A stretch of DNA of 64,000 nucleotides. Source: Sphaerisporangium album. Its GTDB lineage: Bacteria; Actinomycetota; Actinomycetes; Streptosporangiales; Streptosporangiaceae. A program made the translations under genes and the position numbers. The notes under the pieces were generated by a model. The model was given only the letters and a program-made list of their open reading frames with translations. It had not been told where the DNA came from and did not search any database. Below, piece by piece: positions 32,773 through 50,739 of this stretch; within the stretch, counting starts at the first letter, position 1; each line of letters opens with the position of its first letter. Location of the stretch: the NCBI RefSeq assembly GCF_003323745.1, contig NZ_QOIL01000023.1, positions 1-64,000 of the forward strand, given 5' to 3'.

Positions 32773-33762
32773 TCAGGGGGCGGGGACGGGGACGCGGCGG
32801 GCCTGCTGGTCGAGCAGGTCCGTCACCGCGTGGATCGAGCGCAGGGTGGGGACGTCGGCGCCGGTCAGGTCCGCCAGCTCGACCACGGCCGCCAGCAGTA
32901 CGTCCAGCTCCAGGGGCTTGCCCTTCTCCAGGTCCTGGAGGGTCGAGGTCTTGTGCTCGCCGGCCTTCTCGGCGCCGGCGAGGCGGCGTTCGATGGAGAT
33001 CTCGGGCTCGCAGCCGACGCGGCGGGCGACCTCCAGCGTCTCGCGCATCATGGCGACGACCAGCTCGCGTGCCCGCGAGTGGCGGCAGATGCCCGCCATC
33101 GTGGCCCGGGACAGCGCGCTGATCGGGTTGAACGCGATGTTGCCCATGAGTTTGATCCAGATGTCCTTGCGCAGGTCGGCCTCGACCGGGCACTTGAGGC
33201 CGCCAGCGACCATGGCCTCGCCGAAGGCCGTGCACCGGGCGGAGATCGTCCGATCCGGTTCGCCGATCGAGAAGCGGGTGCCCTCCAGGTGCCGGACGAC
33301 GCCGGGCGCCTCGATCTCGGTGGCGGCGTAGACCACGCAGCCGATCGCGCGGCGCAGCGGCAGCGCGTTGGTGACGCTGCCCCCGGGGTCGACGCTCTCG
33401 ATGCGGTAGCCCTCGTAGGGGCCGGGTAAGCCGTGGAAGTACCACCACGGGATGCCGTTCTGGGCGGCCACGATGGCGGTGGTCTCGTGCAGTAGCGGGC
33501 GGATCATGGGCCCGGCCGCCGCGTACGCGTTGGCCTTGAGGCCGAGGAAGACGTAGTCCACCGGCCCGACCTCCGCCGGGTCGCCGGTGGCGTTCGGGTG
33601 ACCGGTGAAGTCACCTCGGGGGCTGAGCACGCGTACGCCGGACGCGCGCATGGCGGCCAGATGGGCTCCACGGGCGATGAGATGGGTCTCGACGCCCGCC
33701 CTGTGCAGGGCGGCGCCTACATACGCGCCGATGGCGCCCGCGCCAACAACTGCGACCTTCAC
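32773..33762 (-). CDS. PanE/ApbA-family reductase, candidate oxalyl-CoA reductase
   Basis: The 329-residue product has the NADP-binding start MKVAVVGAGAIGAYVGAAL and the ketopantoate reductase fold with the conserved K-D-I-W-I-K-L-M-G-N-x-A-F-N-P segment (LRKDIWIKLMGNIAFNP, near residue 195). A PanE for pantothenate would be expected near panB/panC. Here it is divergent from the ThDP enzyme and Frc genes under a shared GntR-type operator. In Methylobacterium extorquens a PanE homologue (PanE2) reduces oxalyl-CoA to glyoxylate, and I propose the same role. It begins with GTG; a promoter with TTGACC and TATACC at 17-nt spacing lies upstream. Ketopantoate reductase remains the alternative. Confidence 0.85.
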   Translation of the reverse strand: MKVAVVGAGAIGAYVGAALHRAGVETHLIARGAHLAAMRASGVRVLSPRGDFTGHPNATGDPAEVGPVDYVFLGLKANAYAAAGPMIRPLLHETTAIVAAQNGIPWWYFHGLPGPYEGYRIESVDPGGSVTNALPLRRAIGCVVYAATEIEAPGVVRHLEGTRFSIGEPDRTISARCTAFGEAMVAGGLKCPVEADLRKDIWIKLMGNIAFNPISALSRATMAGICRHSRARELVVAMMRETLEVARRVGCEPEISIERRLAGAEKAGEHKTSTLQDLEKGKPLELDVLLAAVVELADLTGADVPTLRSIHAVTDLLDQQARRVPVPAP

Positions 33763-33794
33763 GAAGGGGCTCCGTCCTCACGCCGACGATTGCA

Positions 33795-33813
33795 TTCGGT
33801 ATACAGTATGGAA
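33795..33813. promoter_or_regulatory. GntR-type operator O1
   Basis: TTCGGTATACAGTATGGAA matches the right part of the perfect palindrome at 43331-43362 with few differences. It lies 33 nt upstream of the PanE-like start and over its -10 box. Confidence 0.7.
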
Positions 33814-33921: not shown

Positions 33922-33942
33922 TCATACGGTATGCAGTATGCA
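33922..33942. promoter_or_regulatory. GntR-type operator O2
   Basis: CATACGGTATGCAGTATG (33923-33940) differs at three positions from the core CATACGGTATACCGTATG of O5. It sits 20 nt before the ThDP enzyme start, between that gene and its divergent neighbour, so O1 and O2 flank the divergent promoter region. Confidence 0.7.
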
Positions 33943-33962: not shown

Positions 33963-35666
33963 ATGTCCGAGTCAGCAACCCCGCCCGCCGAGCCGGCCCC
34001 CGACCGCATCTCGGGCGGCCACCTCGTGGCCAAGGCCCTCAAGGCCGAGGGCGTCGATGTGATCTTCACGCTGTGCGGCGGTCACATCATCGACATCTAC
34101 GACGGCTGCGTGGACGAGGGCATCGACGTCATCGACGTGCGCCACGAGCAGGTGGCCGCGCACGCCGCGGACGGGTACGCCCGGATCACCGGCAAGCCCG
34201 GATGCGCCGTCGTCACCGCGGGTCCCGGCACCACCGACGCCGTCACCGGGGTCGCCAACGCGCTGCGGGCCGAGAGCCCCATGCTGCTCATCGGCGGCCA
34301 GGGAGCGCTGAGCCAGCACAAGATGGGCTCGCTGCAGGACCTCCCGCACGTCGACCTGATGACGCCGATCACCAAGTTCGCCGCCACCGTGCCCTCGACC
34401 GAGCGGGTGGCCGACCTGGTATCGATGGCGTTCCGCGAATGCCACAGCGGCGCGCCGGGGCCGTCGTTCCTGGAGATCCCGCGCGACGTGCTCGACGCCA
34501 CCGTCCCGCTGGAGCGGGCGCGCATCCCCAAGGCCGGGCACTACCGCGCCTCCACGCGCCAGGCCGGCGACCCGGCCGCGATCGAGCGGCTCGGCGACCT
34601 GATCGCCCACTCCGAGAAGCCCTGCGTCCTGCTGGGCAGCCAGGTGTGGACCTGCCGGGCCACGGGCGACGCCGTGGAGTTCGTCCGCGCGCTCAACATC
34701 CCCGCGTACATGAACGGCTCGGGCCGCGGCACGCTGCCGCCCGGCGACCCGCACCACTACCAGCTCTCCCGCCGGTACGCGTTCAGCAACGCCGACCTGA
34801 TCATCATCGTCGGCACGCCGTTCGACTTCCGCATGGGCTACGGCAAACGGCTCTCGGCCGACGCGACCGTGGTGCAGATCGACCTCGACTACCGCACGGT
34901 GGGCAAGAACCGCGACATCGACCTCGGCATCGTCGGGGACGCCGGGCTCGTGCTCTCGGCGGCAGCTGCGGCGGCGACCGGGCGCGAGGACAACGGCAGC
35001 GCCCGCCGCAAGAGGTGGATGGAGGAACTGCGCGAGGTCGAGACCAAGGCGTTCGAGAAGCGCCTGTCCCGCCAGCTCTCCGACGCGACGCCCATCGACC
35101 CGTACCGGCTCGTCCACGAGATCAACGAGTTCCTCACCGAGGACTCGATCTACATCGGCGACGGCGGCGACATCGTCACCTTCTCCGGCCAGGTGGTGCA
35201 GCCGAAGTCGCCCGGCCACTGGATGGACCCCGGCCCGCTCGGCACGCTCGGCGTCGGCGTGGCGTTCGCGATGGCCGCCAAGTACGCCCGGCCCGACAAG
35301 GAGATCGTCTGTCTGTTCGGTGACGGCGCGCTGAGCCTCACCGGGTGGGACTTCGAGACGATGGTCCGCTTCGACCTGCCGTTCATCGGCGTGGTCGGCA
35401 ACAACTCCTCGATGAACCAGATCCGCTACGGCCAGGCCGCCAAGTACGGCGAGGCCAGGGCGCGGGTCGGCAACACCCTCGGCGACGTCAGGTACGACGA
35501 GTTCGCCCGCATGCTCGGCGGCCACGGCGAGGAGGTCCGCGACCCGGCGGACATCCGTCCCGCGATGGAGCGCGCCCGCGCGTCCGGCAGGCCGTCGCTG
35601 ATCAACGTGTGGATCGACCCGGACGTGTACGCCCCCGGGACCATGAACCAGACGATGTACAAGTAG
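33963..35666 (+). CDS. ThDP-dependent enzyme, candidate oxalyl-CoA decarboxylase or 2-hydroxyacyl-CoA lyase
   Basis: The 567-residue protein has the three-domain acetolactate synthase architecture: Pyr domain with the cofactor-activating glutamate E62 in [16 protein letters not shown], central domain, and the ThDP/Mg motif starting GDG (about 453-455) and ending NN ([10 protein letters not shown]). It ends with an extra tail ([14 protein letters not shown]). It does not carry the SAPGFLNG-type signature of classical Oxc, and the N-terminal [13 protein letters not shown] is unusual. An Frc-type CoA transferase follows after 8 nt, so action on oxalyl-CoA or another 2-oxo/2-hydroxyacyl-CoA is the best inference. 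ATG 33963 has GAGAGGA upstream. Plain acetolactate synthase is unlikely because no small subunit or ilv gene is near. Confidence 0.82.
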
Positions 35667-35674: not shown

Positions 35675-36901
35675 ATGAGCAGAGCACTCGAAGGCGTCCG
35701 CGTCCTCGACATGACCCACGTCCAGTCCGGGCCCTCGTGCACGCAGATGCTCGGATGGCTCGGCGCCGACGTCGTCAAGCTGGAGTCCCCGTCCGGGGAC
35801 ATCACCCGCCAGCAGCTTCGCGACATTCCAGGCGTCGACAGCCTGTACTTCACGATGCTCAACTGCAACAAGCGCAGCATCACGCTGAACATGAAGAGCG
35901 AGCGCGGCAAGGAGATCTTCACCGCCCTGGTACGCGAGGCCGACGTGCTGGTGGAGAACTTCGGCCCCGGCGCCGTCGACCGCATGGGGTTCACGTGGGA
36001 CCGGCTCAAGGAGCTCAACCCGCGCCTGGTGTACGCGTCGATCAAGGGCTTCGGCCCGGGCAGGTACGCCGGGTACAAGGCCTACGAGGTCGTCGCCCAG
36101 GCCATGGGCGGCTCGATGAGCACCACCGGCTTCGAGGACGGCCCGCCGCTCGCCACCGGCGCGCAGATCGGCGACTCGGGCACCGGCGTGCACGCCGTCG
36201 CCGGCATCCTCGCCGCGCTCTACCAGCGCGAGCAGACCGGCAGGGGACAGCGGGTGCAGGTGGCCATGCAGCACGCCGTGCTGAACCTGTGCCGCGTCAA
36301 GCTGCGCGACCAGCAGCGCCTGGCGCACGGCCCCCTCGCCGAGTACCCCAACCGCACGTTCGGCGACGAGGTCCCGCGCTCGGGCAACGCCTCCGGCGGC
36401 GGGCAGCCGGGCTGGGCGGTGAAGTGCGCCCCCGGCGGGCCGAACGACTACATCTACGTGATCGTGCAGCCGCCGGGCTGGCGGCCGATCGCGCGCATCA
36501 TCGGACGCCCCGAGCTGGCCGACGACCCCGAGTGGGCCACGCCGGAGGCGCGTCTGTCCAAGCTGGACAAGATGTTCCAGCTCATCGAGGAGTGGACGAG
36601 CCTGCACGGCAAGTGGGCGGTGCTCGACGCGCTCAACGCCGAGAACATCCCCTGCGGGCCGATCCTGTCGACCAAGGAGCTCATCGAGGACGAGACGCTG
36701 CGCGGCCAAGGCGTGATCATCGACGTCGAGCACCCCGAGCGCGGCGGCTTCACGACGGTCGGCAGCCCCCTCCAGCTCTCGGACTCCCCGGTGACCGTCA
36801 CCACCCCGCCCCTGCTGGGCGAGCACAACGAAGAGGTGTACGCCGGTCTCGGGCTGTCTGCCGGTGACGTGGCCGAGCTGCGAAGAAACGGAGTGATCTG
36901 A
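35675..36901 (+). CDS. frc: Formyl-CoA:oxalate CoA-transferase
   Basis: Frc moves CoA from formyl-CoA to oxalate, giving oxalyl-CoA and formate. The 408-residue class III (CaiB/BaiF) transferase closely follows Oxalobacter Frc: [20 protein letters not shown] at the start, [32 protein letters not shown], the catalytic aspartate D167 in [11 protein letters not shown], and the glycine loop [15 protein letters not shown] that shields the active site. These Frc-specific features make a generic CaiB role less likely, although substrate range in this family varies. It sits 8 nt after the ThDP gene and its stop overlaps the next start (TGATG). Confidence 0.88.
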
Positions 36902-39033
36902 TGACCGCCGAGGCGGACGGCGTGCGCGAGGTGCTGGAGAAGGCCCGCGCGGAGGGCCGGACGGCGCTGACGGCTCCCGAGGGCAGGAAGATCTGCGAGG
37001 CGTACGGCATCGCCACCCCGGGCGAGGGCCTGGCCACCACGGCGGACGAGGCCGTGGCCATCGCGGGGGACATCGGGTTCCCCGTCGTGATGAAGATCGT
37101 GTCGCCGGACATCCTGCACAAGACCGAGGCCGGCGGCGTCATCGTCGGGCTCCACACGGCCGAGGAGGTGCGCGGCGGCTTCGACCGCATCCTCGCGTCG
37201 GCGAGCGCGTACGACCCGGACGCGGCGATCGACGGCGTGCAGGTGCAGCGCATGCTGGACGGCGGCCACGAGGTCATCATCGGCGCGGTCACCGACCCGA
37301 CGTTCGGCAAGGTCGTGGCCTTCGGCCTCGGCGGCGTGCTGGTCGAGGTGCTCAAGGACGTGACCTTCCGGCTGGCGCCGCTCTCGCGCGGGGACGCGCT
37401 CGGGATGCTCGACGACATCAAGTCGGCCGAGGTCCTGCGCGGCGTGCGCGGCGCGGAGGGCGTGGACCGTGAGGCGCTCGCCGGCATGATCGAGCGGGTC
37501 GGCGCGCTCGTGGCCGACTTCCCGGAGATCTCCGAGGTCGACCTCAACCCGGTGTTCGCGACCGCGTCCGGGGCGACGGCGGCGGACGTGCGCATCCTGC
37601 TCGACCCCGAGCCGGTGAAGCCCGCCGAGCGGTTGTCGCGCGAGCGGATCCTCGCCTCGATGAACCGCATCTTCAAGCCCAGGTCGGTGGCCGTGATCGG
37701 CGCGTCGGCCGAGGCCGGCAAGATCGGCAACTCGGTGATGCGCAACCTCATCGACGGCGGCTACCAGGGCCGGGTCTTCCCGATCAACCCCAAGGCCACG
37801 GAGATCATGGGCCTGCCCGCGTACGCCCGCGTCTCCGACGTGCCCTACGACGTGGACGTCGCCGTGTTCGCGATCCCCGCCAAGCTCGTCGCCGGCGCGC
37901 TGGAGGACGCGGGGAGCAAGGGCGTCGCGGGCGCGATCATGATTCCGTCCGGGTTCGCGGAGACGGGCAACCACGAGGGCCAGGACGAGATCGTCGAGAT
38001 CGCCCGCCGTCACGGCGTGCGGCTGCTCGGCCCGAACATCTACGGCTACTACTACACCCCCGAGCACCTGTGCGCGACGTTCTGCACGCCGTACGACGTG
38101 AAGGGCGGCGTCGCGCTCAGCTCGCAGAGCGGCGGCATCGGCATGGCCATCCTGGGCTTCAGCCGCACCAGCAAGATGGGCGTCTCGGCGATCGTCGGCG
38201 TGGGCAACAAGGCCGACATCGACGAGGACGACCTGCTCACGTTCTTCGAGCAGGACGACAACACCAACTGCGTGGCCATGCACATGGAGGACCTGAAGGA
38301 CGGCCGCGGCTTCGTCGAGGTCGCCAAGCGGGTCTCCCGCACCAAGCCGGTCATCGTGCTCAAGGCCGGGCGCACCGCGATGGGAGCCCGGGCGGCGGGC
38401 TCGCACACCGGCGCGCTGGCCGGCGACGACAAGGTGTACGACGACATCCTGCGCCAGGCCGGGGTGGTGCGGGCGCCGGGGCTGAACGACATGCTGGAGT
38501 ACGCCCGCGCCCTGCCCGTCCTGCCGGCCCCCAAGGGCGAGAACGTCGTCATCATCACCGGCGCCGGCGGCTCGGGTGTGCTCCTCTCGGACGCCTGCGT
38601 CGACAACGGGCTGTCCCTCATGGAGATCCCGCCCGACCTGGACGAGGCGTTCCGCGCGTTCATCCCGCCGTTCGGGGCCGCGGGCAACCCGATCGACATC
38701 ACCGGCGGCGAGCCCCCGAGCACGTACGCCAACACGGTCAGGCTCGGCCTGTCGGATCCGAGGATCCACGCGCTGGTGCTCGGCTACTGGCACACGATCG
38801 TGACCCCGCCGATGGTGTTCGCGAAGCTCATCTCCGAGGTGGTGGCCGAGGAGCGGGCGAAGGGCAACGACAAGCCGGTGGTCGCGTCGCTCGCGGGCGA
38901 CACCGAGGTCGAGGCGGCCTGCGACTACCTGTTCGACCACGGCATCGTCGCCTACCCGTACACGACCGAGAAGCCCGTGGCCGTCCTCGGGGCGAAGTAC
39001 CGCTGGGCCAGGGCGGCGGGCCTGCTCGGCTGA
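36901..39033 (+). CDS. ADP-forming acyl-CoA synthetase, beta-alpha fusion
   Basis: The 710-residue protein belongs to the acetate-CoA ligase (ADP-forming) family. The ATP-grasp part comes first (about residues 15-235, with VVMKIVSPDILHKTEAGGV), and the CoA-binding Rossmann and ligase domains come after (from about 260, FKPRSVAVIGASAEAGKIGN). The phosphorylated histidine H502 sits in GSHTGALAGDD. This order is reversed relative to the more common alpha-beta fusion. Its overlap with frc points to activation or recycling of an acid in the same pathway: oxalate, formate or acetate are all possible. The reaction is reversible, so it could also recover ATP from an acyl-CoA. Confidence 0.88.
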   Translation: MTAEADGVREVLEKARAEGRTALTAPEGRKICEAYGIATPGEGLATTADEAVAIAGDIGFPVVMKIVSPDILHKTEAGGVIVGLHTAEEVRGGFDRILASASAYDPDAAIDGVQVQRMLDGGHEVIIGAVTDPTFGKVVAFGLGGVLVEVLKDVTFRLAPLSRGDALGMLDDIKSAEVLRGVRGAEGVDREALAGMIERVGALVADFPEISEVDLNPVFATASGATAADVRILLDPEPVKPAERLSRERILASMNRIFKPRSVAVIGASAEAGKIGNSVMRNLIDGGYQGRVFPINPKATEIMGLPAYARVSDVPYDVDVAVFAIPAKLVAGALEDAGSKGVAGAIMIPSGFAETGNHEGQDEIVEIARRHGVRLLGPNIYGYYYTPEHLCATFCTPYDVKGGVALSSQSGGIGMAILGFSRTSKMGVSAIVGVGNKADIDEDDLLTFFEQDDNTNCVAMHMEDLKDGRGFVEVAKRVSRTKPVIVLKAGRTAMGARAAGSHTGALAGDDKVYDDILRQAGVVRAPGLNDMLEYARALPVLPAPKGENVVIITGAGGSGVLLSDACVDNGLSLMEIPPDLDEAFRAFIPPFGAAGNPIDITGGEPPSTYANTVRLGLSDPRIHALVLGYWHTIVTPPMVFAKLISEVVAEERAKGNDKPVVASLAGDTEVEAACDYLFDHGIVAYPYTTEKPVAVLGAKYRWARAAGLLG

Positions 39034-39040
39034 GCGCCTC

Positions 39041-39061
39041 GGCCGGTCGTCACGACCGGCC
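39041..39061 (+). terminator. Hairpin after the acyl-CoA synthetase
   Basis: A 9-bp stem ggccggtcg/cgaccggcc with a 3-nt loop, 7 nt after the stop codon. It could end or weaken transcription before the transporter gene. Confidence 0.6.
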
Positions 39062-39376: not shown

Positions 39377-39423
39377 TCGGGGAACAGGGGAGCACTGGTC
39401 AACGCCTACGAAAGCGATTTTCG

Positions 39424-40806
39424 ATGACCACTGTAGCACCGAGTTATCGTGAGATCACCGACAGCAATGGCCGGGTGTACCGGATAGGCGAGAGCCCCCG
39501 GGACATCATGGGTCGGCCGCGCTGGCTCATGGTCCTGCTGCCATGGATCGGCATGATGGGCATCAGCGTCTCGGAGTACGCCTTCGGGTCCGCCGAGGAG
39601 ACGCTGCACGACGCGCACGGGTGGTCCGCCACCAACATCTTCTGGCTGCTGAGCGTCTGGGTCTTCTTCCAGGCCGCCGTGGCCTTCCCCGCCGGCTACC
39701 TCCGCGAGAGCGGCAAGCTGTCGGCGCGGGCCGCGATGCTCACGGGCGCGGCGGGCGCCTTCCTCGGATATCTGGCGCTCAGCCACGCGCCGAACATCTT
39801 CTGGGCCTACCTCGGGTTCGGCTTCTTCGGCGGCGCCGGCGCGGGCGTCGTCTACGCGACCTGCATCAACATGGTCGCCAAGTGGTACCCCGAGCGGCGC
39901 GGCGGCAAGACGGGTTTCGTCAACGGCGGGTTCGCCTACGGGTCGGTCCCGTTCGTCTTCATATTCACGACGTACATGCACGAGAACAACTACCAGTCGG
40001 TGCTCGACCTGGTCGGCGTGTACGTGCTGGTCGCCGTGCTGGTGGCCGGGCTGTTCTTCAAGGACCCGCCGAAGAACTGGTGGCCCGCGCACGTCGACCC
40101 GCTGAAGGTCGACGCCAACGCGCGGACGCTGCTGAAGAACCCGCCCGCGGTGCGCCAGTACAAGCCGAAGGAGGCCATCAAGACCGGCATGCTCCCGCTG
40201 ATGTGGGTGTGCCTGCTCTTCACGGCGGGCGTGAACATCTTCGGCATCGCCTTCCAGGTGCCCTTCGGCAAGGAGATGGGCTTCGCCGGCGGGATCGTCG
40301 CCCTCGCGATGAGCCTCAAGGCGATCGTGAACGGCACCGGGCGCGGCGTCATCGGCTGGATCTCCGACCTGGTCGGACGGCGTCAGACGCTCACCATCGT
40401 CTGCGTGATCCTCGGCCTCGCGCAGTTCGCGGTGCTGTGGTCGGGGTCGCTCGGCAACATGCCGCTGTTCCTGCTCTCCTCGATGATCTCCGGCTTCGGC
40501 GGCGGCGCGATCTTCCCGCTGTTCGCGGCGATGACGGCGGACTACTTCGGGGAGAACAACAACGCGACGAACTACGGCCTCGTCTACTCGTCCAAGCTGG
40601 TCAGCGGCCTGCTCGGGTCGGGTATGGGCGCCGTGGTGGTGGGCGCGTGGGGGTACGGCGGCGCGTTCTTCCTCGCGGGAGGCACCAGCCTCGCGGCCGG
40701 CGTGCTGTCGCTGTTCCTGCGCCAGCCCGGGCGTCCGCGCCACAGGGCCGCCACCGCGCCCTCGGGATCGACCCTGACCCCGGCGTCCGAGGGGGCCTCT
40801 GGCTGA
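39424..40806 (+). CDS. OFA-family MFS transporter (oxalate/formate antiporter type)
   Basis: The 460-residue product has 12 predicted membrane helices and several OFA/OxlT features: the cytoplasmic PEKRG-like turn WYPERRGGKTGFVNGGFAYG, the central-loop motif KDPPKNWWP, and SDLVGRRQTL between helices 8 and 9. Members import oxalate in exchange for formate, or other small carboxylates. Its place between the frc operon and the GntR regulator supports a role in oxalate uptake. No GntR-type operator is evident directly upstream, but a 16-bp tandem repeat is. Confidence 0.88.
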   Translation: MTTVAPSYREITDSNGRVYRIGESPRDIMGRPRWLMVLLPWIGMMGISVSEYAFGSAEETLHDAHGWSATNIFWLLSVWVFFQAAVAFPAGYLRESGKLSARAAMLTGAAGAFLGYLALSHAPNIFWAYLGFGFFGGAGAGVVYATCINMVAKWYPERRGGKTGFVNGGFAYGSVPFVFIFTTYMHENNYQSVLDLVGVYVLVAVLVAGLFFKDPPKNWWPAHVDPLKVDANARTLLKNPPAVRQYKPKEAIKTGMLPLMWVCLLFTAGVNIFGIAFQVPFGKEMGFAGGIVALAMSLKAIVNGTGRGVIGWISDLVGRRQTLTIVCVILGLAQFAVLWSGSLGNMPLFLLSSMISGFGGGAIFPLFAAMTADYFGENNNATNYGLVYSSKLVSGLLGSGMGAVVVGAWGYGGAFFLAGGTSLAAGVLSLFLRQPGRPRHRAATAPSGSTLTPASEGASG

Positions 40807-41911: not shown

Positions 41912-41930
41912 TACAGCATACAGTCTGGAA
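41912..41930. promoter_or_regulatory. Weak GntR-type operator O3
   Basis: tacagcatacagtctggaa resembles O1 (TTCGGTATACAGTATGGAA) but has several mismatches. It lies 74 nt upstream of gntR, within the gap after the second transporter gene. Autoregulation is possible; the match is the weakest of the five. Confidence 0.45.
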
Positions 41931-41975: not shown

Positions 41976-43280
41976 TCACACCGGGGTCGGCAGCGTCACC
42001 GGACGCCCGGGTACGCGCAGACCGAAACCAGCCGCGGCCGTCAGCGCGGCGACCGCGGCCGCCACCCCGAACGCCGCCGGAAGGCCCCATGAGGCCCACG
42101 CCAGCGCGGCCAGCCCGGTCCCGAGCACGCCGGCGACGGCCTTGGCGCTGTAGACGGCGCCGTGGATCTCGGCGGTGTGCTCCTCGCCGAAGTACTCGCG
42201 CACCAGGCTCGCGACGAGCGGGTAGAACGCGCCGCCGCCGAGGCCCGCGAGCCCCGCCGCGGCGACGACGAGCGGCCCCGACCCCGCCGCGAAGCCGGCA
42301 GCCAGCAGCGCCTGGCCCGCGGCGAGCACGGCCAGCGTCCCGCCGAGCACGCGCCTGCGGCCCGCGACCTCCGAGGCCAGCACGGCGCAGGCCCGCCCGG
42401 CGCCGTTGAGCGTGACCAGGAGGGCGAGCGCGACCCACGGCGCCCCGGGGACCTCCGCCATGGCGAGGGCGACGACGTCGAACAGCGAGACCGCCCCCGC
42501 GCAGGCCAGGATCGCCGCGAGCCGGGACAGCGCGCCGGTCCGCAGCGCCTGCCCCATGGAGAACTGCCGGACGGCGGGCGGCGTCCGGCGCAGGATCAGC
42601 CGGTCGAGCGCGTGCGCCCGGGGGTCGACGCCGTGCGGCCACCAGTGCCTGGGAGGCAGCCGGACGAACCAGGCGGCCGCGCCGACGAGCGGCAGCGCGA
42701 GGGCCGCGGAGACGACGAAGACCGGGCGCAGCAGGTGGGGGGCGAGGCCGAGGACCACGGCGAGCGGCGCGGCGCCGTAGGCGTAGGCCCCGGTCGCGTA
42801 GGCGACCCACCGCGCGGGCCGCTCGGGGTACCAGCGCGCGACGACCTCGGTGCACACGCCGTAGACCAGCCCGCCGCCGACGCCCCCGGCCAGGGAGTAG
42901 CCGGCGAGGAGGGCCGGGGTGCCGGTCGCGGTGGCCACCATCAGCAAGGCCGCGGCGCTCAGCACGGCTCCGGCCGCCAGCGCGGGGCGCACGCCGAGCC
43001 GGCCGCGGCGCACCAGGTGGATCGCGGGGACGGCGGCGACGGCCTGGCAGGCGATCCAGACGGTCAGCGGGAGGAGCACGGCGAGGACCGAGCCGTCGTG
43101 CCGGCCGAGCAGGACGGGGGTGGCCGCCGCGTACCCGTACTGCAGGGGCGCGATGGCGATCATGGCGGCCCAGGGGAGCCAGAACATCCAGGACCGGGGA
43201 CGGCCGGTCAGCTCGCGGGCGGTGTGCCCGACCAGATAGGGGCGTCCGCGCCAGTCGCGGACGAGCAAGGGATTCTCCAT
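41976..43280 (-). CDS. Second OFA-like MFS transporter
   Basis: The 434-residue product has 12 membrane segments and diverged OFA features: VARWYPERPARWVAYATGAYAYG after helix 4 and RLPPRHWWPHGVDP in the central loop. It is clearly related to the transporter at 39424 but with higher Ala content and many changes. It is divergent from the SucC-SucD-Hyi operon, and operator O4 overlaps its start codon. It could carry a different acid of the pathway, for instance glyoxylate, glycolate or malate. Confidence 0.82.
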   Translation of the reverse strand: MENPLLVRDWRGRPYLVGHTARELTGRPRSWMFWLPWAAMIAIAPLQYGYAAATPVLLGRHDGSVLAVLLPLTVWIACQAVAAVPAIHLVRRGRLGVRPALAAGAVLSAAALLMVATATGTPALLAGYSLAGGVGGGLVYGVCTEVVARWYPERPARWVAYATGAYAYGAAPLAVVLGLAPHLLRPVFVVSAALALPLVGAAAWFVRLPPRHWWPHGVDPRAHALDRLILRRTPPAVRQFSMGQALRTGALSRLAAILACAGAVSLFDVVALAMAEVPGAPWVALALLVTLNGAGRACAVLASEVAGRRRVLGGTLAVLAAGQALLAAGFAAGSGPLVVAAAGLAGLGGGAFYPLVASLVREYFGEEHTAEIHGAVYSAKAVAGVLGTGLAALAWASWGLPAAFGVAAAVAALTAAAGFGLRVPGRPVTLPTPV

Positions 43281-43289
43281 ACTGTATGG
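43277..43289. promoter_or_regulatory. GntR-type operator O4
   Basis: CCATACTGTATGG is a perfect palindrome around one base and matches 11 bases of the inverted O1. It covers the start codon of the second transporter gene, so binding would block initiation there. Confidence 0.65.
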
Positions 43290-43321: not shown

Positions 43322-43350
43322 TGGACGGTCGTTCTTCCATACGGTATACC
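43322..43350 (+). promoter_or_regulatory. Promoter of the sucC-like operon
   Basis: TGGACG (43322-43327) and TATACC (43345-43350) are 17 nt apart. The -10 box is identical to that of the PanE-like gene and lies in the centre of operator O5. Confidence 0.55.
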
Positions 43351-43362
43351 GTATGGAAGAAC
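43331..43362. promoter_or_regulatory. GntR-type operator O5, perfect 32-bp palindrome
   Basis: Two 16-nt arms (gttcttccatacggta and its exact complement) meet without a spacer. This is the best example of the shared motif and lies 16 nt upstream of the SucC-like start, over the putative -10 box. A FadR-type GntR dimer is the obvious binder. Confidence 0.85.
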
Positions 43363-43378
43363 CGCATAAGGAGACGTG

Positions 43379-44533
43379 ATGGACCTGTACGAGTACCAGG
43401 CGAAGGAGCTCTTCGCGCGGCACGGGGTCCCCGTCCCGCCCGGCCGGGTCGCCTCCACCCCCGAGGAGGCGCGGCAGGCCGCGCGGGCGCTCAAGGCGCC
43501 TGCCGTCATCAAGGCCCAGGTCAAGACCGGCGGCCGGGGCAAGGCCGGCGGCATCCGCCCCGCCCCCGGCCCCTCCTCCGCAGAGGCCGAAGCGCGCCGG
43601 GTGCTCGGCATGGACATCAAGGGACACACGGCGAGGACGGTCCTGGTCGAGAAGGCCACGGTGCCGTTCGAGGAGTACTACGCCGCCTACCTCGTCGACC
43701 GCGCGGCCGGGACGTTCCTCGCCATGGTCTCCACCGAGGGCGGCATGGACATCGAGGAGGTCGCGGCGACCCGGCCTCAGTCCCTGGCCAGGATGCCCGT
43801 CGACCCCGCCGCCGGGGTGGACGCCGAGACCGCCCGGCGGCTCACCGACCAGGCGGGGCTGCCCGAGGACGCCCGCGAGCAGGTCGCCGCCGTGCTGACC
43901 GGCCTGTGGCGGGTCATGGTGGAGGAGGACGCGCTGCTGGTCGAGGTCAACCCCCTCGCCCGCACCTCCGACGGCCGCGTGATCGCCCTCGACGGCAAGG
44001 TCACCCTCGACGACAACGCCGCCTTCCGGCACGACCACGCGGCGTTCGCCGACCCGCCGCCGGACCGGGGCGCGGCCGGGCTGGAGGCCAGGGCCCGGGC
44101 GCGCGGGCTGAACTACGTCAAGCTGGACGGCTCGGTCGGCGTCATCGGCAACGGCGCGGGGCTCGTCATGAGCACGCTGGACGTCGTGGCGGAGGTGGGC
44201 GGGGGCCGTCCCGCCAACTTCCTCGACATCGGGGGAGGGGCCTCGGCCCAGGTCATGGCGGCCGCGCTGGAGATCGTCCTGTCCGATCCGGACGTGCGCT
44301 CGGTGCTGGTGAACGTCTTCGGCGGCATCACCGCCTGCGACGCGGTCGCCGAGGGAATCGTGACCGCGCTCGGCACGCTCGGCGAGGTGGGCCACCCGAT
44401 CGTGGTGCGCCTGGACGGCAACAACGCCGAGGCCGGGCGGGCCGTCCTCGACGCGGCGCGGCATCCGATGGTGCGCATGGTCCCGACCATGGACGACGCC
44501 GCGCGTGCCGCGGCGGACCTGGCCGCGAGGTGA
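43379..44533 (+). CDS. SucC-like ADP-forming acyl-CoA ligase, beta subunit
   Basis: The 384-residue product begins [20 protein letters not shown] and has the ATP-grasp domain ([17 protein letters not shown]), [23 protein letters not shown] for metal binding, and the C-terminal ligase domain with [15 protein letters not shown]. It pairs with the SucD-like subunit. The pathway context makes the housekeeping succinyl-CoA synthetase unlikely; malate-CoA ligase (MtkAB type) or an oxalate- or glycerate-related ligase are candidates. ATG 43379 is favoured over GTG 43376 by the spacing to AAGGAG. It is first in an operon with a perfect GntR-type palindrome upstream. Confidence 0.88.
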
Positions 44534-44574: not shown

Positions 44575-44616
44575 TCACAGTGCCATTCACAGTGCCATTC
44601 ACAGTGCCATTCACAG
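44575..44616 (+). repeat. 12-bp tandem repeat between sucC- and sucD-like genes
   Basis: The unit tcacagtgccat is repeated 3.5 times without change in the 121-nt spacer between two genes that are normally adjacent. It is the only marked low-GC spot in this operon. Confidence 0.9.
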
Positions 44617-44654: not shown

Positions 44655-45551
44655 ATGGCCGTCTTCCTGACCAAGGACAGCAAGGTGCTGGTCCAGGGCA
44701 TGACCGGCGCGGAGGGCACCCGGCACACCGCGCGCATGCTCGCCGCCGGCACCGAGATCGTGGCCGGGGTCACCCCGGGCAAGGGCGGCAGGGCCGTCGA
44801 CTTCGGAGACCGGCGCATCCCGGTCTTCGGCGGGGTCGCCGAGGCCGTGGCCGCGACCGGAGCGGACGTCTCGGTCGTGTTCGTGCCGCCGAGGTTCACG
44901 CTCGGCGCGGTGCGGGAGGCGATCGACGCGGCCGTCGAGCTCTGCGTGGTGATCACCGAGGGCGTCCCCGTCCACGACACCATCAGGTTCGTGGCCCGCG
45001 CCGAGGCCACGACCACCCGTATCGTCGGCCCGAACTGCCCGGGGCTCATCAGCCCCGGCCAGTCCAGCGCCGGCATCATTCCCGCCGACATCACCGCCGC
45101 TGGCCCGATCGGCCTGGTCAGCAAGTCGGGGACGCTCACCTACCAGCTCATGTACGAGCTGCGCGACGTCGGGTTCTCGACCGCGGTGGGGATCGGCGGC
45201 GACCCGGTCGTCGGCACGACGCACATCGACGCGCTCGCCGCCTTCGAGGAGGACCCCGAGACCGAGGCGATCGTGCTCATCGGCGAGATCGGCGGCGACG
45301 CCGAGGAACGCGCGGCGGCGTACATCGCCGAGCACGTCACCAAGCCGGTGGTGGCCTACGTGGCCGGGTTCACCGCGCCCGAGGGCAGGACCATGGGCCA
45401 CGCCGGGGCGATCGTCTCCGGGTCCGCCGGCACGGCGCAGGCCAAGAAGGAGGCGCTGGAGAGCGTCGGCGTGCGCGTCGGAAAGACTCCCAGCGAGACC
45501 GCCCGCCTGATGCGCGACGTCCTGGCGGCGCGGGGCGGGAGCGCGTCGTGA
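44655..45551 (+). CDS. SucD-like acyl-CoA ligase, alpha subunit
   Basis: The 298-residue product has the CoA-binding Rossmann fold ([22 protein letters not shown]), the [13 protein letters not shown] segment and the phosphorylated histidine H249 in [13 protein letters not shown]. It is the partner of the SucC-like protein upstream. The residues forming the acyl site cannot be assigned without a structure, so the substrate is open (succinate, malate or oxalate). Its stop overlaps the start of the isomerase gene (GTGA). Confidence 0.9.
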
Positions 45552-46369
45552 GCGCGCCACGGTTCGACGTCAACCTGTCCATCCTGTTCACCGAGCTGCC
45601 GCTGCTCGCACGGCCCGCCGCCGCGGCGGACGCCGGGTTCGACGCCGTCGAGCTGTGGTGGCCCTTCGACCGCCCGGACCCCTCCGACGGCGAGCTGGAC
45701 GCGCTGCGCCGGGCCATCCAGGACGCCGGGGTGCGCCTGGTCGCGCTGAACTTCGACGCGGGCGACATGGCCGCGGGTGACCGTGGCCTGGTGTCCCGGC
45801 CGGACGGGGAGGCGCGCTTCCTGGCCAACGTGGACGTCGCGGCCGGCTTCGCCGGGTCGCTCGGCTGCCGGGCGCTCAACGCGTTGTACGGCAACCGCGT
45901 GCCGGGCCTCGGCGACGAGGCGCAGCGTGACCTGGCCCTGGCCAACCTGTCCGTGGCCGCCGCGGCGGCGGCGCGGGCCGGCGCGACCGTCGTGGTCGAG
46001 GCGCTGAACTCCTACGAGAACCCCGACTACCCGATCACCTCCTCGGCGGCGGCGCTGGAGCTCGCCGACCGGACCGGCGCGCCCAACGTGGCCTTCCTCG
46101 CCGACCTCTACCACCTGCACCGCATGGGCGAGGACGTGCTCACGCTGATCGACTCCGCCGCCGGGCGGTTCGGCCACGTGCAGATCGCCGACGACCCCGG
46201 CCGGGGAGCCCCCGGCTCGGGCGTCATGCCCTACGACGAGATCTTCCGGCGCCTGGACGCCTCCGGGTACGCGGGCCACGTCGGCCTGGAGTTCCGGCCC
46301 GCCGGGCCGGCCATCGACAACTTCGCCTGGCTGAAGGAGAACCACACGATGACGGAGCGTGCGCGGTGA
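45548..46369 (+). CDS. hyi: Hydroxypyruvate isomerase
   Basis: Hyi interconverts hydroxypyruvate and tartronate semialdehyde. The 273-residue TIM-barrel protein begins [18 protein letters not shown], typical of Hyi, and contains [19 protein letters not shown] with the first metal-binding glutamate, [14 protein letters not shown] with aspartate and histidine, [17 protein letters not shown], and the late glutamate in [11 protein letters not shown]. Overlaps with both neighbours (GTGA on each side) place it firmly in the glyoxylate operon. The related OtnI group is the alternative, but the Gcl and reductase neighbours favour Hyi. Confidence 0.9.
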
Positions 46370-47235
46370 GGACGACGTTCATCGGGCTGGGGATCATGGG
46401 GTCCCCGATGGCGGCCAACCTGGTACGCGCGGGATTCGACGTCACCGGGTACGACGTGAGCCCGGGGCCCGTGGAGCGGCTCGCCGCGCTCGGGGGCAAG
46501 GCGGCCGGGTCCGTGCCGGAGGCCGTGAAGGGCGCGGACGTCGTGATCACCATGCTGCCCGACTCGCCGCAGGTCGAGGAGGTCGCCTTCGGCGCCGACG
46601 GGCTGCTCGAACACGGCAGGGCGGGCATGTTCCACGTGGACATGAGCACCGTCAAGCCCGAGACGTCCATACGGGTGGCGCAGGCGGCGACGATCAAGGG
46701 CATCAGGCCGCTGGACGCGCCGGTGAGCGGCGGCGAGCGCGGCGCCGTGGACGGGACGCTCTCCATCATGGCGGGCGGTGCGGCGGAGGACTTCACCGAG
46801 ATGCGCCCGCTGCTGAGCGTCCTCGGCACGACGATCAGGCACGTCGGCCCGTCCGGCGCGGGGCAGACCGTCAAGGCGGCCAACCAGCTCGTCGTCGGCG
46901 GGATCTTCGGGCTGGTCGCGGAGGCCATCGTGCTGCTGGAGGCGTCAGGCGTCGACCCGGCGGGCGGGCTGGACGTGCTCGCGGGCGGCCTCGGGGGCTC
47001 GCGCATCCTCGAACTGCGGCGGCACTCCATGGTCAGGCGGGAGTTCGCGCCGGGCTTCAGGATCGACCTGCACCACAAGGACATGGGGATCGCCATCGCC
47101 GCCGCGCGCCGCGCGGGCGTCGCGCTGCCCCTCACCGGCGTCGTCGCCCAGCTCATGGCGGCCGCCAAGGCCCAGGGGCACGGATCGCTGGACCACTCCG
47201 CACTGCTGAAGGTGATCGAGAGGCTGAACGGATGA
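46366..47235 (+). CDS. glxR: Tartronate semialdehyde reductase (2-hydroxy-3-oxopropionate reductase)
   Basis: The enzyme reduces tartronate semialdehyde to D-glycerate. The 289-residue beta-hydroxyacid dehydrogenase has the NAD(P) motif FIGLGIMGSPMAANLV, the substrate loop DAPVSGGERGAVDGTL, and the catalytic lysine in GQTVKAANQL near residue 168. It starts with GTG inside the stop of the isomerase gene and its own stop overlaps the gcl start (ATGA). The position between hyi and gcl fixes the role more than the sequence alone, since sister enzymes such as 3-hydroxyisobutyrate dehydrogenase look alike. Confidence 0.92.
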   Translation: MRTTFIGLGIMGSPMAANLVRAGFDVTGYDVSPGPVERLAALGGKAAGSVPEAVKGADVVITMLPDSPQVEEVAFGADGLLEHGRAGMFHVDMSTVKPETSIRVAQAATIKGIRPLDAPVSGGERGAVDGTLSIMAGGAAEDFTEMRPLLSVLGTTIRHVGPSGAGQTVKAANQLVVGGIFGLVAEAIVLLEASGVDPAGGLDVLAGGLGGSRILELRRHSMVRREFAPGFRIDLHHKDMGIAIAAARRAGVALPLTGVVAQLMAAAKAQGHGSLDHSALLKVIERLNG

Positions 47236-48956
47236 AGCGCGTCCCCTGCATGGAGGCCGTCGTCGCGGTGCTGGAGTCCGAGGGCGTCGACACCGTCTTC
47301 GGCATCCCCGGAGCGGCGATCCTGCCGCTGTACGCCGCGCTGCGCAAAAGCTCCATCCGCCACATCACCGTCCGGCACGAGGAGGGCGGGACGCACGCGG
47401 CCGACGGCTGGGCGCGCGTCACCGGCAACGTCGGCGTCAGCATCGGCACCTCGGGCCCGGCCGGCACCAACATGATCACCGGGCTCTACACCGCGATGGC
47501 CGACTCCATCCCGATCGTCTGCGTCACCGGGCAGGCGCCGAAGGACAAGCTCCACCAGGAGTCGTTCCAGGCCGTGGACATCGTCGAGATCGCCAAGCCG
47601 GTCACCAAGTGGGCCGTCCAGCTCAAGGAGGCCGCCCAGGCCCCGTGGGTGTTCCGCGAGGCGTTCCGGATCGCCCGGTCCGGACGTCCGGGGCCCGTCC
47701 TCATCGACCTTCCCGTCGACGTGCAGCGCGGCACGTGCCTGTACGACAGGGAGCTCGACGAGCCCTTTCCCGTGGACGTGCCCGCGCCGCCGGTCGGCGC
47801 CGTGCGCGCGGCGGTCGACATGCTGGCGGGCGCCGCGCGCCCGCTGATCCTCGCCGGCGGCGGGGTCGTCATCGCCGACGCCGCCGGCGAGCTCCGCGCC
47901 CTCGCCGAGCACCTCCAGGTGCCGGTGCAGGTGACGCTCATGGGCAAGGGCGCGTTCCCCGAGGACCATCCCCTGTTCGCGGGCATGGCGGGCATCCAGA
48001 CGCAGACGCGCTGGGGCAACGCGGTCTTCCTGGAGAGCGACCTGGTGCTGGCCGTCGGCGCCCGGTTCGGCGACCGGCACACCGGCGACCTGGAGGTGTA
48101 CCGGCGCGGGCGGCGCTTCGTCCACGTCGACATCGAGCCGACGCAGATCGGCCGCGTCTTCGAGCCGGACCTCGGCGTGGTCGGCCACGCCAGGCCCGCG
48201 CTCGCCGCGATGGCCGGGCAGGCGCGGCGCGTCGTCCCCGCCCGCGGGCCGGGGGCCTGGACGCGGCGCGTCGGCGAGCTGCGCGACGGCCTCCCCCGGC
48301 GCGACGACTTCGACGACGTGCCGATCAAGCCGCCCCGGGTGTTCAGGGAGATCAACGAGTTCTTCGGCAGGGACACCACGTTCGTCACCGCGATCGGGCT
48401 GTACCAGATCTGGTCGGGGCAGTTCCAGAAGACCTACCTGCCGCGCCGTTACCTCGTCTGCGGGCAGGCGGGGCCGCTCGGCTGGGAGGTGCCCGCGGCG
48501 ATCGGCGTCAAGTGCGCCCACCCCGAGCGCGAGGTCGTGGCCGTCGTCGGCGACTACTCCTTCCAGTTCCTGATGGAGGAGATCGCGGTCGCCGCGCAGT
48601 ACCGCATCCCGTTCGTGATCATCATGATCAACAACGAGTACCTCGGGCTGATCCGCCAGGCGGAGATCCCCTACGACATGAACTACGCCGTCGACCTGCA
48701 CTACGGAGAGGGCGGCATCGACCACGTCAAGGTCATGGAGGCCTTCGGCTGCCCGGCGCGCAAGGTCGAGGTGCCGGGCGAGCTGCGCGGCGCGCTGGAA
48801 TGGGCGAGCGCCGAGGCCGAGACGCGGCGGCTGCCCGTGCTCGTGGAGGTCATGGTCGAACGGGAGGCCAACGCGGCCATGGGCCCCGCGCTCGACGCGA
48901 TCAAGGAGTTCGAGCCGCTGCCGCGGATGGCGCTCGCCGTCGACTGGTCGGACTGA
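47232..48956 (+). CDS. gcl: Glyoxylate carboligase (tartronate semialdehyde synthase)
   Basis: Gcl joins two glyoxylates, releasing CO2, to give tartronate semialdehyde. The 574-residue ThDP enzyme has Gcl-specific stretches: VFGIPGAAILPLYAALRK, GTSGPAGTNMITGLYTAMAD, ESFQAVDIVEIAKPVTKWAV, VDIEPTQIGRVFEPD, CGQAGPLGWEVPAAIGVK and the cofactor motif GDYSFQFLMEE with NNEYLGLIRQAE. In known Gcl proteins the position that activates ThDP is valine (V51 in E. coli, within R-H-V-E-G); here it is glutamate (E50, RHEEGGTH), as in ordinary ThDP enzymes. The remaining features still favour Gcl. It is the last gene of the coupled chain that starts with the sucD-like gene. Confidence 0.88.
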   Translation: MKRVPCMEAVVAVLESEGVDTVFGIPGAAILPLYAALRKSSIRHITVRHEEGGTHAADGWARVTGNVGVSIGTSGPAGTNMITGLYTAMADSIPIVCVTGQAPKDKLHQESFQAVDIVEIAKPVTKWAVQLKEAAQAPWVFREAFRIARSGRPGPVLIDLPVDVQRGTCLYDRELDEPFPVDVPAPPVGAVRAAVDMLAGAARPLILAGGGVVIADAAGELRALAEHLQVPVQVTLMGKGAFPEDHPLFAGMAGIQTQTRWGNAVFLESDLVLAVGARFGDRHTGDLEVYRRGRRFVHVDIEPTQIGRVFEPDLGVVGHARPALAAMAGQARRVVPARGPGAWTRRVGELRDGLPRRDDFDDVPIKPPRVFREINEFFGRDTTFVTAIGLYQIWSGQFQKTYLPRRYLVCGQAGPLGWEVPAAIGVKCAHPEREVVAVVGDYSFQFLMEEIAVAAQYRIPFVIIMINNEYLGLIRQAEIPYDMNYAVDLHYGEGGIDHVKVMEAFGCPARKVEVPGELRGALEWASAEAETRRLPVLVEVMVEREANAAMGPALDAIKEFEPLPRMALAVDWSD

Positions 48957-49197
48957 CCTCCCCGGGCTCCGAGCCTCCCCGGGCGTCCAAGCCCCTCCCC
49001 TTCCCCTTTCCAGACGCCGGAGTCCCCCGGAGTCCCCGAGCCGGCGGGCCTGCCATGCCCCACCCACCCTGGCAGGCCCGCCCCGCTCACCCGTCCCTCC
49101 CGAGTTCGCCCCCCGAGCCAACGTCAGAGCCCGTTCAGTTCGCCGGGCTACCACGCCCTTCAGCCCGCCGTCCGGAGCCCGATCGAGGAGGCCGCTC

Positions 49198-50739
49198 ATG
49201 CCGCTCGCGCTGAAACCCGCCACCGCCTGGTCCGACGTCTACGATCGCTGCCTCGCCGCGGCGCCCGAGGCGTTCAACGACGACCGCGTGCTCAACCTGT
49301 GGGGAGGCGCCTGGCGCCGCGACGGCCGTCCCGCGCCCGCCTTCTCGCCGGTCGACGGCACCGCCATGCCCGGCCCGCCCCGGCTCGACCGGTCCACGGC
49401 GTTCCGCGCGGTGCGGGCGAGCGTCGAGGAGCACCGGCGCTGGCGGCACATGCCGCAGCAGGAGCGCGCGGCCCGGGTGACCGCGGCGCTGGACGCGCTG
49501 GAGGCCCACCGCGACCTGCTCGCGCTGCTGCTGGTGTGGGAGATCGGCAAGCCGTGGAAGGCGGCCCGCGCGGACGTCGACCGCTGCGTGGAGGGCGTCC
49601 GGTGGTACGTGACGGAGATCGACGGCATGATCGCCGGCCGCACGCCGCTGGACGGGCCGGTGAGCAACATCGCGAGCTGGAACTACCCGATGAGCGTGCT
49701 CATGCACGCGATGCTCGTGCAGGCGCTGGCGGGCAACGCGGTCATCGCCAAGACCCCCACCGACGGCGGGCTGGCCTGTCTCACGCTGGCCTGCGCGCTG
49801 GCCGCCCACGAGGGCCTGCCGATCACGCTGGTCAGCGGCGGGGGAGGCGAGCTGTCCCCGGCGCTCGTGCGCGGCCCCGGCCTCGGGTGCGTGTCCTTCG
49901 TCGGCGGCAGGGGCGCGGGCGGGCAGGTCGCCGCCTCGCTGCGCGGGCTGGACCGGCGGCACGTGCTGGAGCAGGAGGGGCTGAACTGCTGGGGCGTCTG
50001 GCAGTACGGCGGCTGGGAGACGCTGTCGGCGCAGCTCCGCAGGACGTTCGACTACGGCAAGCAGCGCTGCACGGCCTACCCCCGGTTCGTCGTCCAGCGC
50101 GCGCTGTTCCACGACTTCCTGGCCGCCTACCTGGACGCCGTCCGGGCGGTGCGCTTCGGCCACCCGCTCGCGGTGGAAGACCCGGGCGACCCGCTGCCCG
50201 AGCTGGACTTCGGGCCGCTGATCAACGGCACGAAGGCCAAGGAGCTCGCCGACCAGGTGGGCGAGGCCGTCGCGCGGGGAGGCGTGCCGCTGTACCGGGG
50301 CTCGCTGGACGACGGCGCGTTCCTGCCCGGCCAGGACACCTCCGCGTACTTCGCGCCGGTCGCGCTGCTCGCGCCGCCCGCCTCCTCTCCGCTGTTCCAC
50401 GCCGAGCCGTTCGGCCCGGTCGACACCGTGGTGCTGGTGGACACCGAGGCCGAGTTCCTGGCCGCGATGAACGCCAGCAACGGCGCGCTGGTCGCGACGA
50501 TCTCCTGCGACGAGGAGGAGACGGCCCGGCGGCTGGCCGCCGACGTCCGCGCCTTCAAGGTGGGGATCAACGGGCCCCGCTCGCGCGGCGACCGCGAGGA
50601 GCTGTTCGGCGGCCTCGGCGCGTCCTGGCAGGGTGCGTTCGTCGGCGGGGAGCTGCTGGTCAGGGCCGTGACCCTCGGCCCCGAGGGCGAGCGCCTGCCG
50701 GGCAACTTCCCCGGCTACACGCTGCTGCCGGCGCGGTAG
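49198..50739 (+). CDS. Divergent aldehyde dehydrogenase
   Basis: The 513-residue protein has the ALDH fold: the SWNYP segment with the catalytic asparagine, the cofactor lysine in AKTPTDGG, the general-base glutamate E258 and the nucleophile C291 in GKQRCTAYPR, 33 residues apart as usual. The normally strict L-E-L-G-G-K motif is changed to LEQEGLN, and the cofactor loop differs from K-P-A/S-E. It belongs to a side branch whose substrate I do not know. It follows gcl after 241 nt without a gene or operator. In context it could oxidise glyoxylate, glycolaldehyde or a semialdehyde. Confidence 0.8.
   Translation: MPLALKPATAWSDVYDRCLAAAPEAFNDDRVLNLWGGAWRRDGRPAPAFSPVDGTAMPGPPRLDRSTAFRAVRASVEEHRRWRHMPQQERAARVTAALDALEAHRDLLALLLVWEIGKPWKAARADVDRCVEGVRWYVTEIDGMIAGRTPLDGPVSNIASWNYPMSVLMHAMLVQALAGNAVIAKTPTDGGLACLTLACALAAHEGLPITLVSGGGGELSPALVRGPGLGCVSFVGGRGAGGQVAASLRGLDRRHVLEQEGLNCWGVWQYGGWETLSAQLRRTFDYGKQRCTAYPRFVVQRALFHDFLAAYLDAVRAVRFGHPLAVEDPGDPLPELDFGPLINGTKAKELADQVGEAVARGGVPLYRGSLDDGAFLPGQDTSAYFAPVALLAPPASSPLFHAEPFGPVDTVVLVDTEAEFLAAMNASNGALVATISCDEEETARRLAADVRAFKVGINGPRSRGDREELFGGLGASWQGAFVGGELLVRAVTLGPEGERLPGNFPGYTLLPAR

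Follow-up and report, generated by a model that had tools for sequence, protein, structure and literature searches.

How is oxalyl-CoA decarboxylated in an actinomycete if the gene in front of frc does not encode a classical oxalyl-CoA decarboxylase (OXC)? This question is raised by a locus of Sphaerisporangium album, whose genome comprises 9.3 Mb in 62 contigs. We analysed the first 64,000 nucleotides of contig NZ_QOIL01000023.1 (the window; G+C content 71.8%), in which an earlier note had described a GntR-controlled oxalate/glyoxylate regulon at positions 32773-50739. All genes named there are present as open reading frames (ORFs) and were recovered in family scans. The block starts with a PanE-type reductase gene on the minus strand, followed by a tight plus-strand run that encodes a thiamine diphosphate (ThDP) enzyme, the formyl-CoA:oxalate CoA-transferase Frc and an ADP-forming acyl-CoA ligase (ACD). 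Next come an OFA-like transporter gene and, both on the minus strand, the genes of a GntR/FCD regulator and a second OFA-like transporter; SucC, SucD, Hyi, GlxR, Gcl and an aldehyde dehydrogenase (ALDH) are encoded in a second plus-strand run. We consider it likely that the block serves the use of oxalate as one regulon under GntR/FCD control, in which the ThDP enzyme would work with Frc as a second class of oxalyl-CoA decarboxylase, next to a PanE/Gcl branch and to ligases that recharge CoA.

Model scores, active-site residues and a tree all agree with the earlier description of the putative decarboxylase as non-classical. The best NCBIfam match of the ThDP enzyme was the acetolactate synthase model PRK05858 (NF004516) with 502 bits, below the cut-off of 587, and the 2-hydroxyacyl-CoA lyase model of the AcHACL type (NF058623) gave 356 bits against a cut-off of 600. 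Two OXC models yielded 261 and 242 bits at cut-offs of 557 and 739 (for TIGR03254 precisely 241.6 versus 739.4). The clade around the enzyme is discrete: 20 of 296 genomes of the class carry a protein at least 79% identical, the next best being 41% identical (some match at E 1e-90 was found in 113 of the 296). Among the matches listed, which may omit the record of the window itself, the best named relative is from Sphaerisporangium perillae (93%). In a tree of 34 rows (the own-genome ThDP locus L043 is omitted, no match) the ThDP clade formed one group (support 100/100) with IlvG-type proteins as its nearest relatives (99/98), and classical OXCs formed a separate group (100/100). The 41% outsider joined the ThDP clade on a long branch, a type of join that the tree program warns may be false. 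We rejected a merely divergent classical OXC because of the separate groups and the residue differences.

Key OXC residues are listed in the available text of PMC10192776, and roles of Tyr483 and Ser553 as well as of Glu493, the acid/base residue of AcHACL, are given in that of PMC8760513. The columns of Tyr120-Glu121 of OfOXC are occupied by Leu-Gln in all 11 aligned members of the ThDP clade, as in AcHACL (Leu127-Gln128). OfOXC Tyr483 and AcHACL Glu493 fall into one column, which holds Ile in 11 of 11 aligned clade members, three of them proteobacterial, and in 42/42 rows of a second alignment (A2). In contrast, all seven classical OXCs aligned retain Tyr120, Glu121 and Tyr483. The ThDP-activating glutamate (OXC Glu56) is present as the Glu of an RHEQ motif, and at the C-terminus an APGT..QTMYK sequence replaces the OXC lid. 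A structure model (mean pLDDT 76.6, pTM 0.78), which played no part in deciding function, folds like 2-hydroxyacyl-CoA lyase (HACL), OXC, benzaldehyde lyase and acetolactate synthases, HACL and OXC being equally close; fold alignment gave 24-27% identity to OXC chains. With moderate local confidence (blocks of 62 and 74) the model predicts a helix at residues 483-495, where a helix of AcHACL and acetolactate synthase sits that OXC does not have (PMC8760513). Thus the enzyme has in common with classical OXC (TIGR03254) the ThDP superfamily, the activating glutamate, the frc partner and the predicted reaction, but differs from it in both active-site positions, the C-terminus and the model score. 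With AcHACL it has in common Leu-Gln and, as predicted, the helix after the NN motif, but the catalytic Glu493 is replaced by Ile. For decarboxylation no proton transfer is needed at the Tyr483/Glu493 step, as stated in PMC8760513.

In a gene-neighbourhood comparison, as the earlier note had proposed, genes for ThDP enzyme, Frc and ACD lie together in 34/34 loci from the same family and in 84/84 loci of another set, drawn from 80 named genome records and 4 plasmid records. Both sets overlap and were fetched via the ThDP gene; the named loci are the best 80 of 590 matches, and the counts hold for close relatives. Order and strand of the three genes agree in 83 of the 84 loci, with median gaps of 23 and 15 bp; in the exception, Phyllobacterium, ACD is on the other side. 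This grouping is not due to chance. Nor is the set peculiar to Streptosporangiales, since it also occurs in Amycolatopsis, Kibdelosporangium, Streptomyces and others, and reaches Phyllobacterium, Cupriavidus metallidurans and Caballeronia. The loci of these three proteobacteria show identities of 64-65% for the ThDP enzyme, 59-64% for Frc and 69-71% for ACD, and add PanE, SucCD, a GntR regulator and an OxlT relative, the Phyllobacterium gene being annotated oxlT. Neighbours were counted in 63 of the 80 named loci, those flanked by 9 kb or more on each side, and the counts are lower bounds, as the fetched sequence often stops short of SucCD and the glycerate genes. PanE was present in at least 56, GntR in 54, SucC in 46, an Nramp-like gene in 38, a relative of the first transporter (MFS1) in 25, ALDH in 9, GlxR and Hyi in 2 each and Gcl in 1. 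With flanks of up to 17 kb downstream, Gcl was seen in 11 of the 34 family loci. One record (L171) is titled Rhodococcus rhodnii; its layout and identities match the Kibdelosporangium loci, and the title may be wrong.

The distribution of the two decarboxylase types among frc carriers supplies further evidence. In a sample of 120 genomes of the family, which are related and do not represent independent trials, 42 carry an orthologue of the ThDP enzyme, 6 a classical OXC over the cut-off and 45 an Frc over the cut-off. The Frc carriers consist of the 42 genomes with the ThDP orthologue and 3 with a classical OXC; none has both and none has neither. Fisher's test gave p = 3e-29 for the association of ThDP enzyme and Frc, uncorrected for relatedness, and the hypergeometric probability of zero overlap between ThDP enzyme and OXC was 7e-5 within Frc carriers and 0.07 over all 120 genomes. 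The remaining three genomes with OXC encode nothing closer to Frc than a weak relative (32-33%) next to it. In one of the three Frc carriers with a classical OXC (genome G026, locus L203) the OXC gene, on the minus strand, diverges from an OFA-type transporter gene. Behind this transporter gene lie, in order, the genes of Frc (81%) and ACD (75%), of an Nramp-like protein, of a small membrane protein and of a TerC-like protein, and then that of GntR (57%, minus strand). The ThDP orthologue was not found in this genome (97% complete). Since module and operator are the same (the gap that separates OXC from the transporter gene and the region before frc contain the near-exact copies TATACAGTATG and CATATCGTATG), L203 looks like a swap of one decarboxylase for the other. 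What weighs against this is that another gene separates OXC from Frc, which is on the opposite strand, and that OXC lies at a contig edge and outside the exact ThDP slot. Another genome (G053, locus L207) combines a classical OXC with PanE (68%) and module-type Frc (75%); an ACD match was absent from its 13 kb. As controls we inspected the surroundings of the 41% outsider and of the IlvG-type protein of S. album, and found neither Frc, ACD nor any other module gene in 18.6 and 19 kb, respectively.

That the block is a GntR-type regulon, as the earlier note had claimed, is supported by the DNA itself. A palindrome is repeated in the promoter regions: single copies precede panE, gntR and the ThDP gene, one more sits where the gene of the second transporter (MFS2) starts, and a double copy precedes sucC. 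The palindrome CATACNGTATG has two exact matches in the 9.3 Mb genome, both within the block, and 30 sites with up to one mismatch, six of them in the block. Against 0.06 near-exact sites expected in 18 kb this corresponds to a Poisson p of ~5e-11, a value that is flattered because the pattern was derived from the same sites; the loci of relatives are the better test. In the 84 loci of relatives (1.71 Mb) we counted 210 sites, where 5.5 would be expected at the S. album genome rate, and 199 of the 210 are located at starts of cluster genes. At least one such site was found in 77 of 84 loci and none in the other 7. Of the 82 loci with enough upstream sequence, 75 have an operator in the 350 bp that precede the ThDP match. 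In the window, no operator within one mismatch is found in front of MFS1. We prefer 33963 over 33903 as the start of the ThDP gene, because the latter would place the operator inside the gene. The GntR protein would be the one to bind the palindrome, and the operator upstream of its own gene makes autoregulation possible. The features of the block are collected in Table 1.

Table 1. Genes and operator sites of the oxalate block in the S. album window
Feature	Position	Strand	Basis
PanE/ApbA-type reductase, predicted oxalyl-CoA reductase (glyoxylate-forming)	32773..33762	-	NF005089 436.6 bits, cut-off 223; substrate from context
Operator TATACAGTATG upstream of panE	33800..33810	.	Promoter reading and genome motif search
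Operator CATACGGTATG upstream of ThDP gene	33923..33933	.	One of 2 exact genome sites
ThDP enzyme, predicted second-class oxalyl-CoA decarboxylase	33963..35666	+	
Frc, formyl-CoA:oxalate CoA-transferase	35675..36901	+	TIGR03253 657.8 bits, cut-off 504.2
ACD, ADP-forming acyl-CoA ligase; predicted oxalate or formate CoA ligase	36901..39033	+	Pfam ATP-grasp_5, CoA_binding_2, Succ_CoA_lig, Ligase_CoA_2; substrate putative
MFS1, OFA-like major facilitator superfamily (MFS) transporter; predicted oxalate importer or oxalate/formate exchanger	39424..40806	+	TIGR00890 191.1 bits, cut-off 374.85
GntR/FCD regulator	41092..41838	-	PF00392, PF07729
Operator CATACAGTCTG upstream of gntR	41917..41927	.	
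MFS2, second OFA-like MFS transporter	41976..43280	-	TIGR00890 93.9 bits, below cut-off
Operator CATACTGTATG at MFS2 start	43278..43288	.	Other exact genome site
Double operator CATACGGTATACCGTATG upstream of sucC	43338..43355	.	
SucC, succinyl-CoA synthetase beta	43379..44533	+	NF001913 484.1 bits, cut-off 370
SucD, succinyl-CoA synthetase alpha	44655..45551	+	NF004230 433.7 bits, cut-off 336
Hyi-like hydroxypyruvate isomerase	45548..46369	+	TIGR03234 278 bits, below equivalog cut-off 353.45
GlxR, tartronate semialdehyde reductase	46366..47235	+	TIGR01505 357.5 bits, cut-off 340.75
Gcl, glyoxylate carboligase	47232..48956	+	NF008431 867.9 bits, cut-off 791
Divergent ALDH	49198..50739	+	PF00171 252.4 bits; best NCBIfam match 112 bits versus cut-off 521

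From these genes we infer the following scheme, in which all catalytic activities, the direction of the ligases and the assignment of their substrates (oxalate, formate, succinate) are read from sequence. Imported oxalate would be converted to oxalyl-CoA on Frc, which passes its equivalog cut-off and, aligned with E. coli Frc, retains the catalytic aspartate (Asp169), Gln17 and the glycine-rich loop. The ThDP enzyme, from the IlvG/2-hydroxyacyl-CoA lyase side of its family, probably decarboxylates oxalyl-CoA to formyl-CoA, as predicted from the linkage, and formyl-CoA would return its CoA to oxalate via Frc, so that decarboxylation and transfer would constitute a self-renewing cycle. In a side branch the PanE-type enzyme, which passes its subfamily cut-off and whose activity on oxalyl-CoA is predicted from context, would reduce oxalyl-CoA to glyoxylate, and Gcl, GlxR and Hyi would then yield glycerate; homology thus bears out the proposed route from oxalate via glyoxylate to glycerate. 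Gcl narrowly missed TIGR01504 (694.4 versus 711.2 bits) and carries Glu50, not Val, at the position of Val51 of E. coli Gcl, an enzyme known for the absence of the activating glutamate; Glu is also found there in 13 of 13 other loci with a Gcl match at least 70% identical. A search for the Pfam Gly_kinase family, the only glycerate kinase family considered, found one gene elsewhere in the genome, therefore the last step to a phosphoglycerate would be available. For formate dehydrogenase, of which only the TIGR01591 alpha type was searched, the best match is uncertain (549 bits, cut-off 666.25).

Such a side branch would come at a price: each oxalyl-CoA reduction would free CoA and withdraw one carrier from the Frc cycle. 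Because free CoA released by the reductive branch would drain the cycle, CoA must be recharged with ATP, and the likely chargers are the operon's own ACD and the succinyl-CoA synthetase that has been recruited. ACD appears to be the best candidate for a source of activated CoA, being present in every fetched locus and 69-71% identical between phyla. Its scores against named ADP-forming ligases all stay below the equivalog cut-offs (4-hydroxybutyrate 543.3 of 1300 bits, acetate 506.6 of 1200, 3-hydroxypropionate 455.7 of 1300). Oxalate or formate as ACD substrate would both serve, because Frc connects the two thioesters. An extra priming enzyme for oxalate use has been proposed before, namely YfdE of E. 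coli, an acetyl-CoA:oxalate CoA-transferase that does not accept succinyl-CoA, and in O. formigenes and other organisms with promiscuous formyl-CoA:oxalate CoA-transferases a dedicated priming enzyme may be dispensable, as described in parts of PMC3720670. In contrast to the E. coli oxalate operon as presented there, the extra enzymes of S. album are predicted ATP-using ligases and not a second CoA-transferase. On balance, we are inclined to regard the ThDP clade as a second bacterial class of oxalyl-CoA decarboxylase with an apolar Ile at the position of OXC Tyr483 and lyase Glu493. This class would usually be the one paired with Frc in the family of S. album, occur in alpha- and betaproteobacteria as well and travel with an ACD that ties oxalyl-CoA or formyl-CoA to ATP in an energy-charged oxalate cycle.

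The earlier note had taken the SucCD pair of the block for a dedicated ligase. An oxalate-CoA ligase of this kind would fit the operator in front of the sucCD operon, the presence of SucC in 46 of the 63 loci with full flanks and the occurrence of exactly two SucC (E 1e-60) in 10 of 10 cluster-bearing genomes checked; in S. album the single other SucC is 63% identical to that of the cluster. However, SucC and SucD both pass succinate-CoA ligase cut-offs, and cluster SucC is polyphyletic in a tree covering 9 of the 10 genomes (G028 was excluded and hits below 300 residues were dropped): copies of G090, L167 and G012 fall among housekeeping SucC, and proteobacterial copies are placed far away. 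The tree led us to reject SucCD as one specialised lineage, with gene conversion between copies as a possible complication, and leaves the dedicated ligase doubtful; as an oxalate-CoA ligase SucCD is very unlikely. Because cluster SucC is not one lineage, the role of SucCD is probably to provide succinyl-CoA, not to act specifically on oxalate. Repeated recruitment of an ordinary succinyl-CoA synthetase suggests that succinyl-CoA itself is needed.

Two further explanations were weighed. The ThDP enzyme could be a carboligase or lyase that uses an aldehyde such as glyoxylate together with formyl-CoA or an acyl-CoA, or it could catalyse a reaction of the acetolactate type; oxalyl-CoA would then not be decarboxylated in the block. 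The nearest curated models, PRK05858 and 2-hydroxyacyl-CoA lyase, and the IlvG-type neighbours in the tree speak for it, but it would leave without explanation why 45 frc genomes divide between ThDP enzyme and classical OXC and why the module in L203 bears an OXC; also, the residue with the acid/base role in AcHACL (Glu493; PMC8760513) is Ile. We hold this explanation to be rather improbable. Alternatively, the block could run mainly in reverse, with the PanE-type enzyme oxidising glyoxylate to oxalyl-CoA for decarboxylation and ACD making ATP from the thioester. ADP-forming ligases are reversible, and glyoxylate would be handled by Gcl and Hyi. The C. necator authors assign the reverse route a secondary role in glycolate use (available text of PMC7486775). 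Yet OFA-like transporters and the oxlT annotation in Phyllobacterium point to oxalate import, and glyoxylate oxidation would need no Frc cycle, which makes a mainly reversed flow improbable.

How much of this system is new? In Methylobacterium extorquens, PanE2 reduces oxalyl-CoA to glyoxylate. For Cupriavidus necator a route from Frc via a PanE-type reductase (ApbA2, found via the M. extorquens protein) to Gcl is in print, and deletions support the PanE-type oxalyl-CoA reductase, the glycerate pathway and the need for frc-oxc in growth on oxalate (PMC7486775, in part). The systems are alike in that oxalyl-CoA is decarboxylated for energy or reduced, with glyoxylate leading to glycerate (frc-oxc, ApbA2 and gcl-hyi-tsr in C. 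necator); S. album is unlike them in a decarboxylase of another class, in the ACD of every fetched locus and in the recruited SucCD copy. The suggestion of an undescribed system therefore holds for the decarboxylase and the ligase linkage and fails for the Frc/PanE/Gcl route: the pathway is known, the central enzyme and the ligase linkage are unrecognised so far. No paper that deals with this clade of ThDP enzymes, with the linkage to the ligase or with Nramp genes at oxalate loci was recognised in our literature search. According to the available text of PMC7190790, in which 1396 OXCs were surveyed, these form one highly conserved network at 50% identity with the same active sites, and the ThDP clade falls outside this description. 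In the HACL/S tree of PMC11271303, as far as its text extends, there is a homologue clade without tested activity or predicted function, to which the ThDP clade could belong. Reference genes such as OXC were used to search for oxalotrophy in the survey of PMC10192776; in our 120 family genomes an OXC-only search would miss 42 of 45 frc carriers. If the proposed assignment is true, nature would have solved the decarboxylation of oxalyl-CoA a second time, in a form of use to formyl-CoA chemistry, and it would become testable by what means oxalate assimilation makes up for the CoA that is lost.

Transporters and accessory genes vary among the loci. Both OFA-like proteins of the block stay below the family cut-off. 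The slot after ACD is occupied by an Nramp-like gene in 49 of the 84 loci, by an MFS1 relative in 27 and by OxlT in one; 4 have none of these and 3 are cut off. The Nramp-like gene, possibly a metal or metal-oxalate transporter, is usually accompanied by a small membrane protein and a TerC/Alx-like gene (L052 10346-11848 and 8824-9810; L203 7042-10240). Between panE and the ThDP gene many relatives carry a MoeA-like molybdopterin gene (L052 17118-18383), which may serve formate dehydrogenase; counting any position, 27 of the 84 loci have a MoeA match, which in a few lies elsewhere.

With respect to the block and its surroundings, a promoter scan of 39000-43500 found no promoter and 4 terminator-like hits (1.2 in shuffles). 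A known riboswitch in the long stretch that precedes MFS1 was rejected: between 30500 and 54000 only two tRNAs passed the Rfam gathering scores. The 121-bp spacer between sucC and sucD contains a perfect 12-bp tandem repeat of 3.5 copies (44575-44616). In the three genomes of the same genus in our sample both the ThDP gene and Frc are absent, and a scan of the 10 ORFs flanking the block found no integrase. In L207 (10279-11357) PanE-Frc-OXC adjoins histidine-phosphatase-like and RsfS-like genes (called by eye), as does the left flank of the block in the window, a hint of a recurrent chromosomal site. Three nearly identical tRNA-Ala(GGC) genes occur at 31034-31107, 53546-53620 and 63681-63754, the first two of which flank the oxalate block, and the closest relative locus (L119) has a tRNA-Ala(GGC) as well, at 1266.

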